A DNA stretch of 46,155 bases from Candidatus Cloacimonadota bacterium (GCA_030600585.1 JAUVLU010000021.1:1-46155), one strand, 5' to 3'; shown: positions 18,625-46,155, numbered from the stretch's first letter. The notes: generated by a model not told the origin, from the sequence alone. Program-made: numbers and translations.

Positions 18625-18761
18625 AGAAGCCCACGAATTTATTCGTGGGAATAATTATCCAAACTGCTTATATTAACCGGTTTACCGGTTTTTAATAAAC
18701 GATTGAAACTGTTATCTTTTTCTGTGTGTTTTCGGTCTCACGAATAGATTGGTGGGCTTCT
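18625..18761. repeat. 137-bp MITE-like element or structured RNA with 23-bp terminal inverted repeats
   Basis: The left end starts AGAAGCCCAC and the right end finishes GTGGGCTTCT. Over 23 bp the two ends are inverted copies with two mismatches. The left end also contains its own perfect palindrome CCCACGAA-TTTA-TTCGTGGG (18630-18649). The centre has AACCGG/CCGGTT repeats. No reading frame is present. It could be a small non-autonomous mobile element or a folded RNA; sequence alone does not decide. Confidence 0.6.
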
Positions 18762-39800: not shown

Positions 39801-40469
39801 ATGAAAACAAAGATTATTAGTATAACTTTTCCAGACATGAAATTGAAAGTGTATCAAATTCCTAAACTACGAGGTTTCTTTTCAAATAAATTTCCACAAA
39901 ACACAGAATTTCATAATCATCTTCCGGGTGGAAAATTTTCTTATAAATTTCCTCAAATTCAATACAGAATTATAGATCATCATCCTGTTCTCATCGGCAT
40001 TAATGACGGTATTGATATTCTTAAAAAAATATTTTTCGATTTAGATGAAATTATCATCAGTAACCGCAAATATTCACTTAACGAAAAAGAGATAATATTA
40101 ACAGAAAAAGAATTCGGAATAGCAGATAACTTTATCAATTATCGTTTCATATCACCATGGATGGCTCTGAATGAAGATAATTACGCAAAATATATTCAAC
40201 TCAATAAAATCGAACAGCAGAAACTTTTGAAACGAATACTGATTGGTAATATAATCAGTATGGCAAAAGGTTTTCATTATAACATACCAGATGATTTTGA
40301 GATTAAAGTTGAAGGTTATTTCAAGCCAAAACAGGTAAATTTCAAAAACAAGAAAATGCTCTGTTTTAAGGGTGATTTTATGACCAATTTCAATATCCCT
40401 GATCATCTCGGTTTGGGAAAACAAAGTGCGAGAGGTTTTGGAGTGGTGACACAAACATCCTGTTTGTGA
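39801..40469 (+). CDS. cas6: CRISPR-associated endoribonuclease Cas6
   Basis: Cas6 (222 residues) cuts the long repeat-spacer transcript into crRNAs. It has a ferredoxin-like start (MKTKIISITFPDMKLKVY), a LRGFFSNKF segment, and a C-terminal glycine-rich loop LGKQSARGFGVV (about 205-216) diagnostic of the Cas6 superfamily. Positively charged segments suit RNA binding. The pattern resembles Cas6b-type proteins. GAAGGAAG lies before the ATG. The last residues TQTSCL, beyond the normal end at GFGVV, come from a palindromic repeat (40450-40468). It heads the locus and is separated from the SWIM gene by 139 bp holding a REP doublet. Confidence 0.88.
   Translation: MKTKIISITFPDMKLKVYQIPKLRGFFSNKFPQNTEFHNHLPGGKFSYKFPQIQYRIIDHHPVLIGINDGIDILKKIFFDLDEIIISNRKYSLNEKEIILTEKEFGIADNFINYRFISPWMALNEDNYAKYIQLNKIEQQKLLKRILIGNIISMAKGFHYNIPDDFEIKVEGYFKPKQVNFKNKKMLCFKGDFMTNFNIPDHLGLGKQSARGFGVVTQTSCL
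40450..40468 (+). repeat. Short palindromic repeat forming the last codons of cas6
   Basis: CACAAACA-TCC-TGTTTGTG: 8-bp stem, 3-nt loop. It encodes TQTSCL and the stop codon overlaps its end. Related copies sit in the two secreted-protein genes. Confidence 0.75.
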
Positions 40470-40474
40470 ATGGA

Positions 40475-40526
40475 GGTGACGTTTGCCAACGTCGCCTTCA
40501 AAATGACAACAATGCGCAACGTCACC
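40475..40526. repeat. REP-like doublet A between cas6 and the SWIM gene
   Basis: A palindrome GGTGACGTT-TGCC-AACGTCGCC (40475-40496) is followed by a half copy AACGTCACC (40518-40526), which can also pair with the first arm. It belongs to the REP family repeated across the cas module. Confidence 0.85.
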
Positions 40527-40608
40527 TCTTCGGATTGGATGTTTGTTGTATGAAGACAAGATTGTATGATATTACCGATTCTCAATAAAATATTTAAAGG
40601 TAAAAAAA

Positions 40609-42360
40609 ATGAGCAATACAAAATTGCCAAAAGTAACATTGGAATTGTTAAAAGACAGATCTACAAATGAGAGCTTTAGAAGAGGAAGAAATTATTATCG
40701 ATCAGACTTTGTTTCCAACTTAAGAGTACAAGATAATTCATATATTGCATCTGTTACTGGCAATTATCATTATGAAGTAAAGATCACACAAAATAATAAT
40801 GATATTGATTTTTCTTGTACCTGTCCCTACGATTGGGGAGGTATCTGTAAACACTGCATTGCCGTCGGACTTTATATTCTAAATCATGATAAAGAAGTTG
40901 TAAAAAAGGCTAAATCAAGGAAGAAACTGAAAACCGAAGACAAATTTGATGTAGTTGAGATTATGAATAAAGCTACTTCTAAACAGAAAGATGAATTTCT
41001 GCAAAAAATTCTTCGGGAGAATCAAGAATATAAAGAAAAGTTCTTTGCAGCGATCTTACTTCAAACCGAACTGGAATCAAGCATCATAATTGATCCCATA
41101 AGGGATAAGGTTATTGATATTATAGAAAACTTCGATCTGGAAAATTATCAACGATTTTATGATTACAATGATAACAGATATGGCTATCGGGATGAATGGG
41201 AAACAATATTCGATGGAGCAAATGAGGAATTGAATAAAAGTCTTGATTTTATAACTATAAAAATCGAAAGAAATATTAAGAATGGAAATATCATTGATGC
41301 ATCAAAATTGATGTTTGGACTTTATGAGGGTATTTCATTAACAGATTGTTATGAGATAAATGATCCTGCTGGTATTTTTGATGGTGAATTCAAAAATCAG
41401 GTAGAGATATTTTTTCTTGAGTTTTTGAAAAATATCATTCCATCTTTTTTTTCTGCTTCAAAAACTTCACAAGCTATTTTTAGGATTATTGATATCTTCT
41501 TTGAAAGAGTTACTTACTATACAAAATCAACTTTTGAAGACTTTAGCTATGATTTGTTTCTGTTCCGTGATTTTCTTAATGCCTTGATAATTGATCAGGA
41601 AACAGCAAAACATCTATTTTCATATCTCAATAAAATGAAGTTACTTAATTCATCCACAGATACGGTTCAATTAAAAATCTATGATATATTTAACGATAGT
41701 GAAAAATGGCTGCATACTGCTGAAAAATATTATAAAAATAATACCGAGATTGCACAGGAATTACTGGATTATTATAAAAGTTCAAATATGGATAAATTCA
41801 TCGAAATAGGAAAAATTGTCTTTCAGAAATGGGCAAATGATTTTGATGAATATCTCTACGAAAATCTGAATATAAAATATGATCGGGATTTCTTTAAAGA
41901 GGTTATGTTCCAATATGCTAAAAAAACCCAAAGCCTACCTTTATTCAGAGAAATTAAAGATAATTTTGGTGAAAAAGCTGCAAAACAATTTATAGAAAAG
42001 GTGAAACAAAAAACTCTTTTTTATATCAATCTTTTAAATGAACAAGGTGAATACAAAACGATATTACAATTTGTTAAAGAGAACACCGATGATTGGCATT
42101 TCGTAAAGCTCATAAAACCTATTCTAAATGTTTATCCAGAAAAATGTTTTGAGATTATAAAGAATAAATCCGATGGTTACTTGAAAGAAAACGTAGGAAG
42201 GAAATATTATGTAGAAGTTGCTCATTGGTTAGAACTTCTTTTAAAAATTAAAGACTCAAAAATTAAATCGGGAATAAATTCATATTTAAAAGAGTTGTTG
42301 CAAAAATATAAAATGCGACCGGCATTGAAAGATGAACTCAAAAAAGTTGGAATAAAATGA
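40609..42360 (+). CDS. SWIM zinc-finger protein within the CRISPR locus
   Basis: The 583-residue protein has an N-terminal SWIM zinc finger (C70-x-C72-x7-C80-x-H82; context DFSCTCPYDWGGICKHCIAV). The remaining 490 residues are helical and repeat-like, without recognised catalytic motifs (about 120-580, with many Phe/Tyr and Glu/Lys). SWIM fingers bind DNA or proteins and are best known in SWI2/SNF2 and MuDR-like proteins, but stand-alone SWIM proteins exist in many bacteria. No ATPase motif is present. It sits between cas6 and the UPF0158/cas1 genes, same strand, 43 bp before UPF0158. Whether it has a CRISPR role or is a passenger is open. AAAGG lies before the ATG. Confidence 0.8.
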   Translation: MSNTKLPKVTLELLKDRSTNESFRRGRNYYRSDFVSNLRVQDNSYIASVTGNYHYEVKITQNNNDIDFSCTCPYDWGGICKHCIAVGLYILNHDKEVVKKAKSRKKLKTEDKFDVVEIMNKATSKQKDEFLQKILRENQEYKEKFFAAILLQTELESSIIIDPIRDKVIDIIENFDLENYQRFYDYNDNRYGYRDEWETIFDGANEELNKSLDFITIKIERNIKNGNIIDASKLMFGLYEGISLTDCYEINDPAGIFDGEFKNQVEIFFLEFLKNIIPSFFSASKTSQAIFRIIDIFFERVTYYTKSTFEDFSYDLFLFRDFLNALIIDQETAKHLFSYLNKMKLLNSSTDTVQLKIYDIFNDSEKWLHTAEKYYKNNTEIAQELLDYYKSSNMDKFIEIGKIVFQKWANDFDEYLYENLNIKYDRDFFKEVMFQYAKKTQSLPLFREIKDNFGEKAAKQFIEKVKQKTLFYINLLNEQGEYKTILQFVKENTDDWHFVKLIKPILNVYPEKCFEIIKNKSDGYLKENVGRKYYVEVAHWLELLLKIKDSKIKSGINSYLKELLQKYKMRPALKDELKKVGIK

Positions 42361-42403
42361 TATTTGTTAATATTTTCAATAATTCAAAAAGGAGAAGATC
42401 AGA

Positions 42404-42802
42404 ATGAAATATTCGGATAAATTAATTGAAAACATTATCGAAGCATTAGATAATGCTGACTTTGAAACGACTTATTATTTTAATAAAAAGACACTGGAAA
42501 TTACCAGTTTTACAAATTATGATGAGGATGAAGAAGTTGATATTGATTTGAGTAAATGGATTAATATCGATGGAATCGAATCTTATGAAAAATACAATCT
42601 TATGGAAGATTTTGCTTCAAGACAAAATGATAGATTGAGAGAGCTTCTGAATGTTGCTTTAAATGGGAAAGGTGCGTTCCGCAGATTCAAGGATGTATTG
42701 TATCACTTCCCGGAAGAACAGGAAAAATGGTATGAATTTGAACACGAATGGTTTAAACAGCAAGCAATCGATTTTTTGGATGAGGTTTATGAAAACACAT
42801 AA
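42404..42802 (+). CDS. UPF0158 family protein
   Basis: Small acidic protein (132 residues) of the UPF0158 family. It has FETTYYFNKKTLEITSF near the start, YNLMEDFASRQND in the middle and the hallmark NGKGAFRRFKDVLYHFPE followed by WYEFEHEWFKQQAIDFLDE. Function unknown across the family. GGAG precedes the ATG. It follows the SWIM gene by 43 bp with no repeat in between, so these two look like one transcriptional unit inserted as a pair between cas6 and cas1. Confidence 0.88.
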   Translation: MKYSDKLIENIIEALDNADFETTYYFNKKTLEITSFTNYDEDEEVDIDLSKWINIDGIESYEKYNLMEDFASRQNDRLRELLNVALNGKGAFRRFKDVLYHFPEEQEKWYEFEHEWFKQQAIDFLDEVYENT

Positions 42803-42822
42803 TACACCGGTAAAGATTAAAG

Positions 42823-43197
42823 ATGGCAGAAGAAATTATGAAATATGATCTTTATGTGTTTTGTTTGAATTATGATCATTTTGAAGGCAACGTTGGCATT
42901 TTGAAGGATTTTGAAGGCGACGTTTGCCAACGTCGCCTTCAAAGGGAATTCGACAAAACCACATATCAATATCGACAACAATACATTGCAAAATTCGGGA
43001 ATGATTTTCAACATCCAAAATTCAAATGGCAAAAATCATTTCACGATCATATCATTCGGAATGAAAAGGATTTCAACAACCATTGGAATTATACGATGTA
43101 TAATTATTTGAAACATAACCTGCCGGAAAATTGGAAATACACGGGATTGAATTATCCGGAATTGATCGATGATATAAATGATTTTGAAATTGAATAA
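42823..43197 (+). pseudogene. Decayed REP-associated tyrosine transposase (RAYT) remnant
   Basis: The reading frame (124 codons) keeps the C-terminal half of a Y1/RAYT transposase: QYRQQYIAKFGNDFQHPKF, then WQKSFHDHIIRNEKDFNNHW, then NYTMYNYLKHNLPENWKYTG and LNYPELID. That region carries the nucleophilic Tyr of the family (NYTMYN, usually (D/E)YIxxNPVKHG). The N-terminal HUH part is absent; in its place is sequence holding a REP palindrome (42910-42943). Hence it is probably inactive. RAYTs normally mobilise REP/BIME elements, and such elements surround it. Confidence 0.7.
42883..42943. repeat. REP-like doublet B inside the RAYT remnant
   Basis: A degenerate half copy (GGCAACGTTGGCA at about 42886) is followed by the best palindrome of the family, a 15-bp stem (arms TTTGAAGGCGACGTT / AACGTCGCCTTCAAA) with loop TGCC at 42910-42943. 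Confidence 0.88.
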
Positions 43198-43202
43198 ATG
43201 CG

Positions 43203-43310
43203 GCGATGTCGAAGGCGACAATTACCATTGTCGCTTTCATGTCGGAAACAAACTCGAAAGCGATGATGTCGAAAGCGATGATGTCGAAAGCGACGTTGGC
43301 AAACGTCGCC
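43203..43310. repeat. REP-like doublet C with 15-bp tandem repeats upstream of cas1
   Basis: The first palindrome is GAAGGCGACAAT-TACC-ATTGTCGCTTTC (43211-43238), the second GCGACGTT-GGCA-AACGTCGC (43290-43309). Between them, TCGAAAGCGATGATG is repeated in tandem (43254-43268, 43269-43283, partial from 43284). The cas1 ribosome site AGAGGT follows at once. Confidence 0.85.
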
Positions 43311-43324
43311 AACAGAGGTAAAAT

Positions 43325-44302
43325 ATGGAATTATATTTAAACACATACGGCACATATCTTCACAAAAAAGAAGAAATGTTCGAGGTTCGTATCGAGGACG
43401 AGAGCAAACGCATCTCTCCCAAAAGAATTTCGTCTATTATCATTTCCAATGCAGCCCAAATCACGACAGATGCAATTCAAATGGCTTTGGAATATAATAT
43501 CGATATTGTGTTTTTGGATAAATATGGTACTCCTTATGGTCGTTTGTGGCTGCCGAAACTCGGAAGTACTACATATATTCGAAGACGTTTATTGGAAATT
43601 TATCAGAACGATACCGGTTTGGAATTCGTGAAACGCTGGATAGGTCGAAAAACAGATAATCAATTAAAATTCCTGAAAGAAATATTGAAAAAGAGACCTC
43701 ATCTAAAAATGGAAAATAAAATTGATGAAATTTCTCGTTTAAAAAATCAACTGGTTCAAATAAACGATGTTCTTTCTAAAACCGCTTACCGGATACTTGG
43801 AATTGAAGGAAATATTTCTCGTGTATATTTCCAAACTTTATCTGTTTTGCTTCCTGAGAAATATAATTTTCACGGTAGAAGCAGCCGACCTGCAAAAGAT
43901 CCTTTCAATGCCTTCCTGAATTATGGTTATGGTGTGCTTTACAGCAAAGTTGAAAAAGCTCTGATCATTGCGGGTTTAGATCCTTACATAGGTTTGTTGC
44001 ACACAGATAATTACAATAAGAAATCTCTGGTTTTCGATTTCATTGAACCTTATCGTATTTTAATCGATGAACCTGTTTTTTATCTTTTCAGTCGTCGAAA
44101 AATAAAAAATTCTTTTTATGATGAAATAAATAATGGTGTTATCTTAAACGAGGAAGGTAAGAAATTCTTCATAACAGAATTAATGGAAAGTTTTGATAAA
44201 AAGATCAGGCATAAAAACAGGAACATGAAGAATATAAATCAAATACAGGCAGATGCTCATGCATTTGCAAATTTCTTGATCGGCAAAAGAAAGGATTATT
44301 GA
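43325..44302 (+). CDS. cas1: CRISPR integrase subunit Cas1
   Basis: Cas1 (325 residues) inserts new spacers with Cas2. The N-terminal beta-domain begins MELYLNTYGTYLHKKEEMFE. The catalytic triad is visible as E161 (GIEGNISRVYF), H226 (GLLHTDNYNKKS) and E241 (FDFIEPYR). Both the N-terminal DNA-contact loop region and the C-terminal helical tail (HAFANFLIGKRKDY) are intact, so it should be active. AGAGGT lies 5 bp before the ATG. It is followed by a REP doublet, then cas2 and cas4, an adaptation module cas1-cas2-cas4. Its stop codon TGA is the first part of a REP copy (TTGAAGGCGACG). Confidence 0.96.
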   Translation: MELYLNTYGTYLHKKEEMFEVRIEDESKRISPKRISSIIISNAAQITTDAIQMALEYNIDIVFLDKYGTPYGRLWLPKLGSTTYIRRRLLEIYQNDTGLEFVKRWIGRKTDNQLKFLKEILKKRPHLKMENKIDEISRLKNQLVQINDVLSKTAYRILGIEGNISRVYFQTLSVLLPEKYNFHGRSSRPAKDPFNAFLNYGYGVLYSKVEKALIIAGLDPYIGLLHTDNYNKKSLVFDFIEPYRILIDEPVFYLFSRRKIKNSFYDEINNGVILNEEGKKFFITELMESFDKKIRHKNRNMKNINQIQADAHAFANFLIGKRKDY

Positions 44303-44359
44303 AGGCGACGTTGGCAAACGTCGCAAACAAACAACGAAAGCGACATTGGCAAATGTCGC
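44301..44359. repeat. REP-like doublet D between cas1 and cas2
   Basis: Two palindromes, GCGACGTT-GGCA-AACGTCGC (44305-44324) and GCGACATT-GGCA-AATGTCGC (44340-44359). The arms carry matching changes (GT/AC to AT/AT), so pairing is kept. Confidence 0.88.
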
Positions 44360-44381
44360 ATACAGGAAACCGGAGGATTTT

Positions 44382-44672
44382 ATGTTAACATGGGTAATGT
44401 ATGATATTCCAAAAGACAGAACACGAAATAAAATTGCCAAATTATGTGAAGAATCCGGAATTTACCGTGTTCAATATTCCATCTTTCTTGGTGATCTGAA
44501 CAATGCTCAAAGAAAAGAGCTTATTACAAATTTGAAAGACTTGATGAATATCGATGAAGACTCTGTTTATGTGTTCCCAATGTGTAGTGAAGATTTCAAT
44601 AAATGCAAATTATTAGGACAGGCATTTAATAAAGAGTTGATCGCAGATGAGATAAAGACGCTTTTTTTATAA
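44382..44672 (+). CDS. cas2: CRISPR adaptation protein Cas2
   Basis: Cas2 (96 residues), ferredoxin-like partner of Cas1. It begins MLTWVMYDIPKDRTRNKIAK, with the conserved Asp8, and has YRVQYSIFLGDL, typical of Cas2. The start is the ATG at 44382 with GGAGG 6 bp upstream. An upstream ATG at 44346 lies in a REP repeat and is rejected. It follows cas1 by 79 bp and precedes cas4 by 9 bp. Confidence 0.95.
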   Translation: MLTWVMYDIPKDRTRNKIAKLCEESGIYRVQYSIFLGDLNNAQRKELITNLKDLMNIDEDSVYVFPMCSEDFNKCKLLGQAFNKELIADEIKTLFL

Positions 44673-44681
44673 GGATAGATA

Positions 44682-45365
44682 ATGATAAAAGAAAATATAT
44701 CTCAAATCGAAGGCGACATTGGCAAATGTTGCATACAATGTGAAAACAACGAAGGCGACATTGGCAAATGTCGCATTCAAACAAATATTTTCGTCACCCC
44801 ATCTGAAGTTATTGAATATTTATTTTGTCCTCGCTTCATTTATTTTATGAATGTTCTGAAAATAGAACAACACGAACATAAAAGAAAATTGGTGAATAAA
44901 GGAAGGGACATTCATATTCTTAAAATGGTTTGCAACAAAGATTATCTCAGAAAAAAGATAGGTGCTATCGATAAAAAAATTGATGTTTATCTTACTTCCA
45001 AAAAATTGAAATTGGTGGGAAGGATAGATGAAGTTCTCTTTTTGGAAAACGATGAAGCAGCACCACTCGATTACAAATATGCTTTTTGGGAAGATAGAAT
45101 ATATAAAACATTGAGAATTCAGCAGACTCTTTATGCACTTTTGATCGAAGAAAATTTTAACAAGAAAGTGGGGAAAGCATTTCTCGTTTATGTACGAAGC
45201 AAAAATCATCTTGAGGAAATTCGGATTACAGAAAATATGAAAAAGGAAGCTATCGTGATTGTGAATGAAATATTCGATATCTTGAACCAAAATTATTTTC
45301 CTAAAGCAACAAAAAACAAAAATAAATGTTTGGATTGCACTTATCGAAATATTTGCTCGGTCTGA
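44682..45365 (+). CDS. cas4: CRISPR-associated exonuclease Cas4 with repeat-derived N-terminal insert
   Basis: Cas4 (227 residues) trims prespacers and helps choose PAM-side ends. The typical beginning VTPSEVIEYLFCPRFIYF (from residue 38) has Fe-S Cys49; C216, C219 and C225 (CLDCTYRNICS) complete the cluster. RecB nuclease motifs are GRIDEVLF, PLDYKYA and IQQTLYALL. Ahead of this, residues 1-37 contain two copies of EGDIGKC(C/R)IQ (10-19 and 24-33), encoded by REP palindromes at 44713-44732 and 44755-44774. AAGGA precedes the ATG, and no other ATG lies between it and the Cas4 domain, so the repeats are translated. Confidence 0.92.
   Translation: MIKENISQIEGDIGKCCIQCENNEGDIGKCRIQTNIFVTPSEVIEYLFCPRFIYFMNVLKIEQHEHKRKLVNKGRDIHILKMVCNKDYLRKKIGAIDKKIDVYLTSKKLKLVGRIDEVLFLENDEAAPLDYKYAFWEDRIYKTLRIQQTLYALLIEENFNKKVGKAFLVYVRSKNHLEEIRITENMKKEAIVIVNEIFDILNQNYFPKATKNKNKCLDCTYRNICSV
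44709..44774 (+). repeat. REP-like doublet E in frame within cas4
   Basis: Two palindromes, GCGACATT-GGCA-AATGTTGC (44713-44732) and GCGACATT-GGCA-AATGTCGC (44755-44774), are spaced 42 bp (14 codons) start to start and read in one frame of cas4. Confidence 0.9.
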
Positions 45366-45547: not shown

Positions 45548-46155
45548 CTTTTAATTCGTAAATCCAATATAACAAGGATTGAAACCGCGTGTGATAGCCA
45601 CATATAAAAGACGTCGTTCCTCCTTTTAATTCGTAAATCCAATATAACAAGGATTGAAACATTTTGCACCTAAAATATCACTGTTTTCAGGCAGCAATCT
45701 TTTAATTCGTAAATCCAATATAACAAGGATTGAAACTTCCGTCTCCATCTCCATCCCAAACACGATGATTTTCTTTTAATTCGTAAATCCAATATAACAA
45801 GGATTGAAACCAAACAGCTTCTCGATCTTCCCGGACATTGAAGGACCTTTTAATTCGTAAATCCAATATAACAAGGATTGAAACTTGCATAATATTTAAT
45901 ACTCATGATTATTTTTCCTCTTTTAATTCGTAAATCCAATATAACAAGGATTGAAACATTGCCGATCAAACTGAGGATGAAGAAGTTCATAAAGCCTTTT
46001 AATTCGTAAATCCAATATAACAAGGATTGAAACAATATGATGAAGAATTAAGACAAAAAAAGTTCGATTATCTTTTAATTCGTAAATCCAATATAACAAG
46101 GATTGAAACATGGCAGTGCTTTAATGGGGATTTTTTCTCAATTAACTTTTAATTC
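45548..46155 (+). CRISPR. CRISPR array, 8 complete repeats and a partial ninth, cut by the window end
   Basis: The 38-nt repeat starts CTTTTAATTCGTAAATCC and ends AACAAGGATTGAAAC. Copies lie at 45548, 45623, 45699, 45773, 45847, 45920, 45996 and 46072, all identical by eye, and the first 10 nt of a ninth at 46146. The eight spacers are 37, 38, 36, 36, 35, 38, 38 and 36 nt. The end ATTGAAAC is the usual 8-nt crRNA handle of type I-B/III systems with Cas6. AATCC and GGATT inside the repeat can form a weak 5-bp stem before the handle. Transcription runs left to right from the leader. Spacer targets cannot be told from sequence alone. Confidence 0.98.

Follow-up and report, generated by a model that had tools for sequence, protein, structure and literature searches.

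REPs of a RAYT subfamily found repeatedly in CRISPR-cas loci probably account for a palindrome cluster in a Cloacimonadota genome

A contig of a Candidatus Cloacimonadota bacterium (GCA_030600585.1, JAUVLU010000021.1:1-46155) carries eight full palindromes within positions 40,471-44,781, with half copies between them, in the CRISPR-cas locus at its right end. We consider it probable that they are repetitive extragenic palindromic sequences (REPs) of a subfamily of REP-associated tyrosine transposases (RAYTs), single-strand transposases of the HUH Y1 kind, and that this subfamily recurrently settles in CRISPR-cas loci as a selfish lineage with local copying. The stretch analysed here, called the window, is the whole contig C46 with 46,155 bases, from a genome of 2.58 Mb that is 96.8% complete in 89 contigs. 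The genomes compared (numbered with G) are fragmented metagenome-assembled genomes (MAGs).

The palindromes follow the consensus GAAR-GCGACNWT-4nt-AWNGTCGC, with the arms GCGACGTT/AACGTCGC or GCGACATT/AATGTCGC and, in one copy only, GCGACAAT/ATTGTCGC. The copies and the RAYT remnant among them are:

40471..40502, minus strand: REP copy 1, separating cas6 from the SWIM-like gene, with one arm mismatch and a minus-strand GAAG head
40515..40530, no strand given: half copy (GCGCAACGTCACCTCTTC), from direct reading
42823..43197, plus strand: RAYT remnant that has lost its N-terminal/HUH half and retains the WQKSFHDHIIRN...NYTMYN (Tyr) half
42874..42898, plus strand: half REP at the deletion edge within the RAYT remnant
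42912..42943, plus strand: REP copy 2, in frame as EGDVCQRRLQ within the RAYT remnant, at the site of the in-gene REP of intact relatives
43210..43241, plus strand: REP copy 3, with AAT/ATT arms, upstream of cas1
43256..43284, plus strand: two tandem REP half units (GAAAGCGATGATGTC)
43285..43316, plus strand: REP copy 4, immediately upstream of cas1
44300..44331, plus strand: REP copy 5, overlapping the cas1 stop codon
44335..44366, plus strand: REP copy 6, between cas1 and cas2
44708..44739, plus strand: REP copy 7, in frame in the cas4 N-terminal extension (EGDIGKC)
44750..44781, plus strand: REP copy 8, in frame in the cas4 N-terminal extension (EGDIGKCRIQ)

These coordinates confirm the eight full palindromes and the half copies reported at the cas locus by a first-pass annotation of this DNA. 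Five of the eight copies are extragenic or at gene ends and three are in frame. Shuffled windows hold 0.05 copies on average versus the eight observed, and the DNA hairpin z-scores range from -3.7 to -7.1. The annotation had called the copies doublets of REPs or bacterial interspersed mosaic elements (BIMEs). Their REP-like nature stands, but the term BIME does not, since the doublets at 44300-44366 and 44708-44781 are both direct (head-to-tail, with the same orientation of the GAAR head) and not inverted or alternating. The head is asymmetric, with G in 41, A in 39 and A in 42 out of 44 copies at its first three positions, the copies having been oriented by that head. Most copies have GAAR; GTAG occurs in one G027 copy and in Patescibacteria.

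Over 42 copies, 94.9% of stem cells are paired compared to 85.3% in shuffles, double changes occur in 42 stem cells compared to 15 in shuffles, and pairing drops to 21-55% in slid controls. The covariation score is 0.294 versus 0.129 when shuffled, and 0 out of 500 shuffles reach the observed score; the copies are kin and were gathered partly by palindromy, so the shuffle and slid controls somewhat overstate covariation. Stem variation is concentrated at two pairs (A-U/G-C 20:20 and U-A/A-U 22:19). Support independent of these controls comes from the sister species: between the window and G008, each of four orthologous sites shows one compensated stem pair change and zero uncompensated ones, in line with the compensatory arm changes noted before, and the loops flip from GGCA to TGCC, the reverse complement. 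Because the stem variants were already present in the family and the loops flip in this way, the symmetric changes are explained as well by the RAYT or conversion having replaced or inverted copies as by stepwise selection.

The palindromes might instead be kept because they benefit the cas operon, forming RNA hairpins between its cistrons by which the cas transcript is stabilised, terminated or processed. Their position at gene junctions, the covarying stems, the compensated pair behind each stem change at the four sister-species sites and the recurrence of a REP at the cas4 start in three genera are what such hairpins would predict. However, several copies lie within coding sequence (RAYT, cas4), related RAYT-free cas loci are without palindromes and copies are also found within RAYT genes outside cas loci, while symmetric change is equally expected from REP replacement and the loop flip suggests inversion or replacement. 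We therefore give RNA hairpins a small chance.

The palindromes are confined to the cas locus. None is found in the first 39.7 kb of the window and none in its CRISPR array (45549..46155), the end of which is missing from the contig; their absence before the cluster and from the array had been described correctly. Genome-wide, GCGACRTTKGCMAAYGTCGC with two mismatches has seven sites, every one at the window cas locus, and a laxer 24-mer with three mismatches finds all eight window sites plus four isolated, chance-like sites elsewhere. The concentration at the cas locus that the first-pass annotation had proposed is thus upheld by the genome-wide count, and the palindrome is not equally dense elsewhere. 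In G008, the nearest relative carrying the element, 7 out of 7 strict sites are on one 9.3-kb contig, which is the cas locus with an intact RAYT. G008 is named Candidatus Tenebribacter mawsonii, and as Tenebribacter is treated as a genus of Cloacimonadota (PMC8542988), the window is placed in this phylum.

The same genome offers an internal control, as the palindrome CACGTTCAaggTGAACGTG, which flanks another RAYT (contig C77), has about 19 sites over a dozen contigs. Since the assembly retains these dispersed C77 REPs, confinement is a property of the cas-locus REP family; the general REP behaviour of the genome was rejected as the reason for the clustering. A loss of dispersed copies from the MAG by assembly or binning, with confinement only apparent, would suit genomes that are all fragmented MAGs, but the recovery of other short REPs at about 19 sites in the same assembly and the agreement of two separate Tenebribacter MAGs make this very improbable. 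Chance or composition as the source of the palindromes was rejected by the genome-wide scan and the shuffled windows. CRISPR-repeat relics were rejected as well, the palindrome being unrelated in sequence to the CRISPR repeat and missing from the array. The RAYT-like genes of C77, C10 and C38 (L141, L144, L145) have palindromes of their own, namely CACGTTCA-agg-TGAACGTG, AACGACGT-tca-ACGTCGTT and CCCACGAR-gga-YTCGTGGG, the first one being that dispersed at about 19 sites. The perfect palindrome CCCACGAATTTATTCGTGGG and a second imperfect copy, at window positions 18630-18649 and 18737-18756, match the palindrome family of the C38 gene.

The open reading frame (ORF) at 42823-43197 has no Pfam match itself. 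From 42913 on, its identity to the intact 211-aa G008 protein is 83%, over the C-terminal half of the latter; that protein, like other intact relatives, matches Y1_Tnp (PF01797). The only plausible PDB sequence relative of the G008 RAYT is TnpA_REP 4ER8 (E 0.027), with the conserved RAYT Tyr aligned to Tyr 115 (Y115) of 4ER8. For an AlphaFold model made from three sequences (predicted local distance difference test, pLDDT, 68.7; predicted template modelling score, pTM, 0.71), the PDB entry ranked first by Foldseek is again 4ER8 (E 6e-6), the structure of a RAYT in complex with a REP hairpin. The HFH motif and NYTMYN are conserved in intact relatives, which retain the catalytic residues, and the stretch WQ..F..H.IRN..D...H..Y, common with E. 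coli TnpA_REP and aligned to 4ER8 residues 91-125, is retained in the window ORF. It is accordingly the RAYT remnant that it had been taken for. The window RAYT is without most residues before NYDHF and without those from NYDHF to the in-gene REP, and at the deletion junction a half REP lies beside a full REP; the deletion of the HUH half may have been REP-mediated. Comparison between loci shows purifying selection on the RAYT codons, with omega at 0.09-0.16 and synonymous sites close to saturation. For G015 versus G027, omega is 0.09 at a synonymous divergence (dS) of about 1.2, which indicates that the RAYT was functional over much of its history.

We searched 125 Cloacimonadota genomes for the RAYT and obtained 16 matches, or 15 loci once two G107 contig ends with an exact 127-base overlap were merged. 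Ten out of these 15 loci of the subfamily are cas loci. The RAYT is immediately behind cas6 in G015, G020, G027 (C55), G107, G113 and G115 (C113), where its start overlaps the cas6 end. In G041 the Cas6 in front of it belongs to another family, G027 has a further copy (C70) in a second type I locus, placed between cas4 and cas1, and in G008 an intact RAYT lies between cas3 and cas1. The window remnant is the tenth. The five RAYTs outside cas loci are those of G010, G019 (at a contig edge) and G109 and two of G115; the G109 one is behind obgE and one of the G115 pair behind recG, with gene names read from protein sequences. With cas loci taken as about 0.5-1.2% of a genome, the chance of 10 out of 15 is about 1e-16 if the loci are independent and about 2e-6 if only 4 of 9 events are counted. 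The excess is overwhelming even on this conservative count of independent events.

Other phyla were thinly sampled, and the scan of named genomes used a single exact pattern. A Marinimicrobia relative, picked by its palindrome and not by cas genes, has the RAYT about 620 bases past a three-repeat array beside a I-E cas7e/cas5 remnant, and the relatives in Patescibacteria and Gracilibacteria lie outside cas loci. The Patescibacteria genome MM_PC_MetaG.mb.11 has the same palindrome over many contigs (L043, L045, L046, L048, L049, L058, L061, L066, L067), often with GTAG/CTAC flanks, and one RAYT with the palindrome in frame (L058). The 20-mer matches in GC-rich genomes (Collimonas, Catellatospora, Planctomycetota, Woeseiaceae, Devosia and others) were set aside, as they are headless and look like chance or coding sequence. 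As to a viral origin, the exact palindrome is on one viral contig only.

The RAYT and Cas6 trees group differently: the G113 RAYT falls with G015/G027 and the G113 Cas6 with G107, though several forks are weakly supported. There is also a near-empty site in G109, the cas6 of which is 91% identical to that of G115 and is directly followed by the cas8 start, while G115 has the RAYT between. Given this RAYT-free cas6 and the tree disagreement, the simplest reading of the sequences would be that the RAYT repeatedly arrived at, or was exchanged among, cas loci. That the RAYT was inserted at cas6 once, in an ancestor, and then passed down with the locus is unsupported, because the groupings disagree, though many of the forks are weak. 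The mobile history suggested by the first-pass annotation gains support from the RAYT link and from the recurrent residence of RAYTs in cas loci.

This residence could also mean that the RAYT has been domesticated as an accessory gene of CRISPR, with the REPs as a by-product; it might, for instance, process hairpins or single-stranded prespacers in adaptation. The gene repeatedly comes next after cas6, in two Cas6 families, and also occurs between cas4 and cas1; it overlaps the cas6 end in G115, is under purifying selection and retains the catalytic residues in its intact copies. On the other hand, only 6 out of 30 cas6 loci inspected have it as a neighbour, and it occurs with more than one subtype; it thus fails as a core or subtype-specific cas gene. 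Close cas6 relatives are without it, five of the 15 RAYTs are outside cas loci, and the window RAYT is dead while cas1, cas2 and cas4 there are under strong constraint. Domestication is thus unlikely in our view, and so is the related idea of a CRISPR-associated HUH transposase, in which the subfamily would be drawn to or kept in cas operons for a hairpin nuclease role in adaptation or related DNA processing. The patchy presence and the five RAYTs outside cas loci lead us to prefer a selfish passenger over a dedicated immune function.

The palindromes go with the RAYT. The cas loci of RAYT-free relatives carry none (7 out of 7), and the palindromes of G008 occur only at the same cas locus as in the window. 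REPs flank the RAYT gene in G008, G015 and G027, mostly with the same head orientation, and none are recognisable in G113. Palindromes behind cas6 without a RAYT are found in G030, plus a degenerate copy in G029 (by eye), and these are consistent with scars. In G041, positions 220-462 of L120 (C27) hold five near-tandem palindromes of the GCGACAAT type within 250 bases; neither a RAYT nor a cas gene was recognised on that contig.

In three phyla, those RAYTs for which enough sequence is available carry an in-frame REP or its trace at one inter-domain site (EGDxGQxRLR), in G113, G020 and G041 in a degenerate or altered form. The AlphaFold model shows this region (residues 103-124) as a disordered linker with pLDDT <50. 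In the window, G008, G015 and G020, which represent three genera, the reading frame of cas4 also begins with REPs; in RAYT-free loci cas4 starts near the conserved (F/Y)(V/I)TPSEV motif. Palindromes that are stop-free in frame, and in frame in both cas4 and RAYT, recall palindromic coding inserts of the kind known from Rickettsia (Rickettsia palindromic elements, RPEs), which would be unrelated to the RAYT. With palindromes tied to RAYT in three phyla, a conserved in-gene copy and many extragenic copies, this origin is already disfavoured and hardly probable.

In the reading that we favour, palindromes as REPs of this RAYT, the RAYT gene would have entered the window operon as it did in the sister genomes, where it follows cas6 or is flanked by cas genes. 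During its active time it may have copied or recombined REP hairpins nearby, at gene junctions, in its own linker and at the cas4 start. It would then have lost its catalytic HUH half, apparently by a deletion ending at REP copies, leaving the eight REPs as scars. TnpA_REP binds the single-stranded hairpin, and its 5' tetranucleotide acts in recognition and in the choice of the cleavage dinucleotide (PMC8266576); by analogy, the RAYT here may bind a single-stranded hairpin with the GAAR head guiding recognition. Spread may have stayed local because the RAYT is weakly expressed and prefers to act in cis, because little time has passed since it came with the cas locus, or because of selection. 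Several points weigh against this account. The head is GAAR and not the canonical GTAG, and the doublets are direct and not inverted. The account does not explain local confinement; the REPs of another RAYT in this genome are dispersed. Movement of the palindromes by this RAYT is something that we infer and did not observe, a low RAYT omega would be expected alike from an active and from a domesticated transposase, and the genomes are MAGs.

The right end of the window holds, in order, cas6b, a SWIM-like ORF, a UPF0158 ORF, the truncated RAYT ORF, cas1, cas2, cas4 and the CRISPR array:

39801..40469, plus strand: cas6 (Cas6b; Pfam PF17262/PF17955)
40609..42360, plus strand: SWIM-like ORF (weak PF04434)
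42404..42802, plus strand: UPF0158 ORF (PF03682)
43325..44302, plus strand: cas1 (PF01867)
44382..44672, plus strand: cas2 (PF09827), start placed at MLTWVMYD
44682..45365, plus strand: cas4 (PF01930) with the REP-encoded N-terminal extension
45549..46155, plus strand: CRISPR array with the repeat CTTTTAATTCGTAAATCCAATATAACAAGGATTGAAAC, reaching the contig end and cut by it

The SWIM-like and UPF0158 ORFs (40609-42802) occupy the place of cas8-cas7-cas5-cas3 in the sister genome, and the window's genome yielded no homologue of that sister cas3. The start of a SWIM-like gene is also behind cas6 in another genus (G023, L092/L135). A gene of the 23S-rRNA-IVP type is found between cas1 and cas2 in two different cas loci (L072 549-989, PF05635; L023 2385-2852, similar by eye).

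REPs and RAYTs are usually viewed as genome-wide residents, whereas this RAYT subfamily has a recurrent CRISPR-cas address in several kinds of loci and two phyla. Its REPs stay local and enter the reading frames of the RAYT itself and of Cas4, which gives a testable setting for how RAYTs pick targets and how their REPs move about. One may also ask whether cas operons simply tolerate such residents or benefit from having a single-strand hairpin nuclease. A text search of the literature, which left most subscription papers uncovered, found no earlier description of a RAYT subfamily in cas loci with a REP in its own frame, and the residence of RAYTs in cas loci of more than one phylum appears to be newly described. 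Prior work covers RAYTs, REPs, REPs within genes and REP families with local clustering (PMC2817692, PMC3733652, PMC3116915).

The clustered GTAG-23 REPs of T. roseum (PMC3733652) are similar in that a REP family is at few loci and not dispersed; the portion of that paper available reports no CRISPR-cas location for them. RPEs share palindromes in frame within coding genes, but are grouped there with REPs without a dedicated transposase (PMC3733652), whereas the window palindromes are tied to a RAYT. REPINs and BIMEs (PMC3116915) are likewise composite REP pairs and within-genome mobile elements related to RAYTs; their pairs are inverted or alternating and usually many per genome, compared to the head-to-tail pairs and eight copies here. 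Similar features are found in the REPs and REPtrons of the GTAG superfamily (PMC2817692, PMC3733652, PMC8266576): a short hairpin with a conserved 4-nt 5' head and a covarying stem, a cognate HUH Y1 transposase with HUH and Tyr motifs, palindromes local to the RAYT gene, and intragenic REPs. In contrast to these, the system described here has a GAAR head (GTAG in some relatives only), direct doublets, a conserved REP inside the RAYT frame, and a RAYT residing in CRISPR-cas operons with its REPs confined there.

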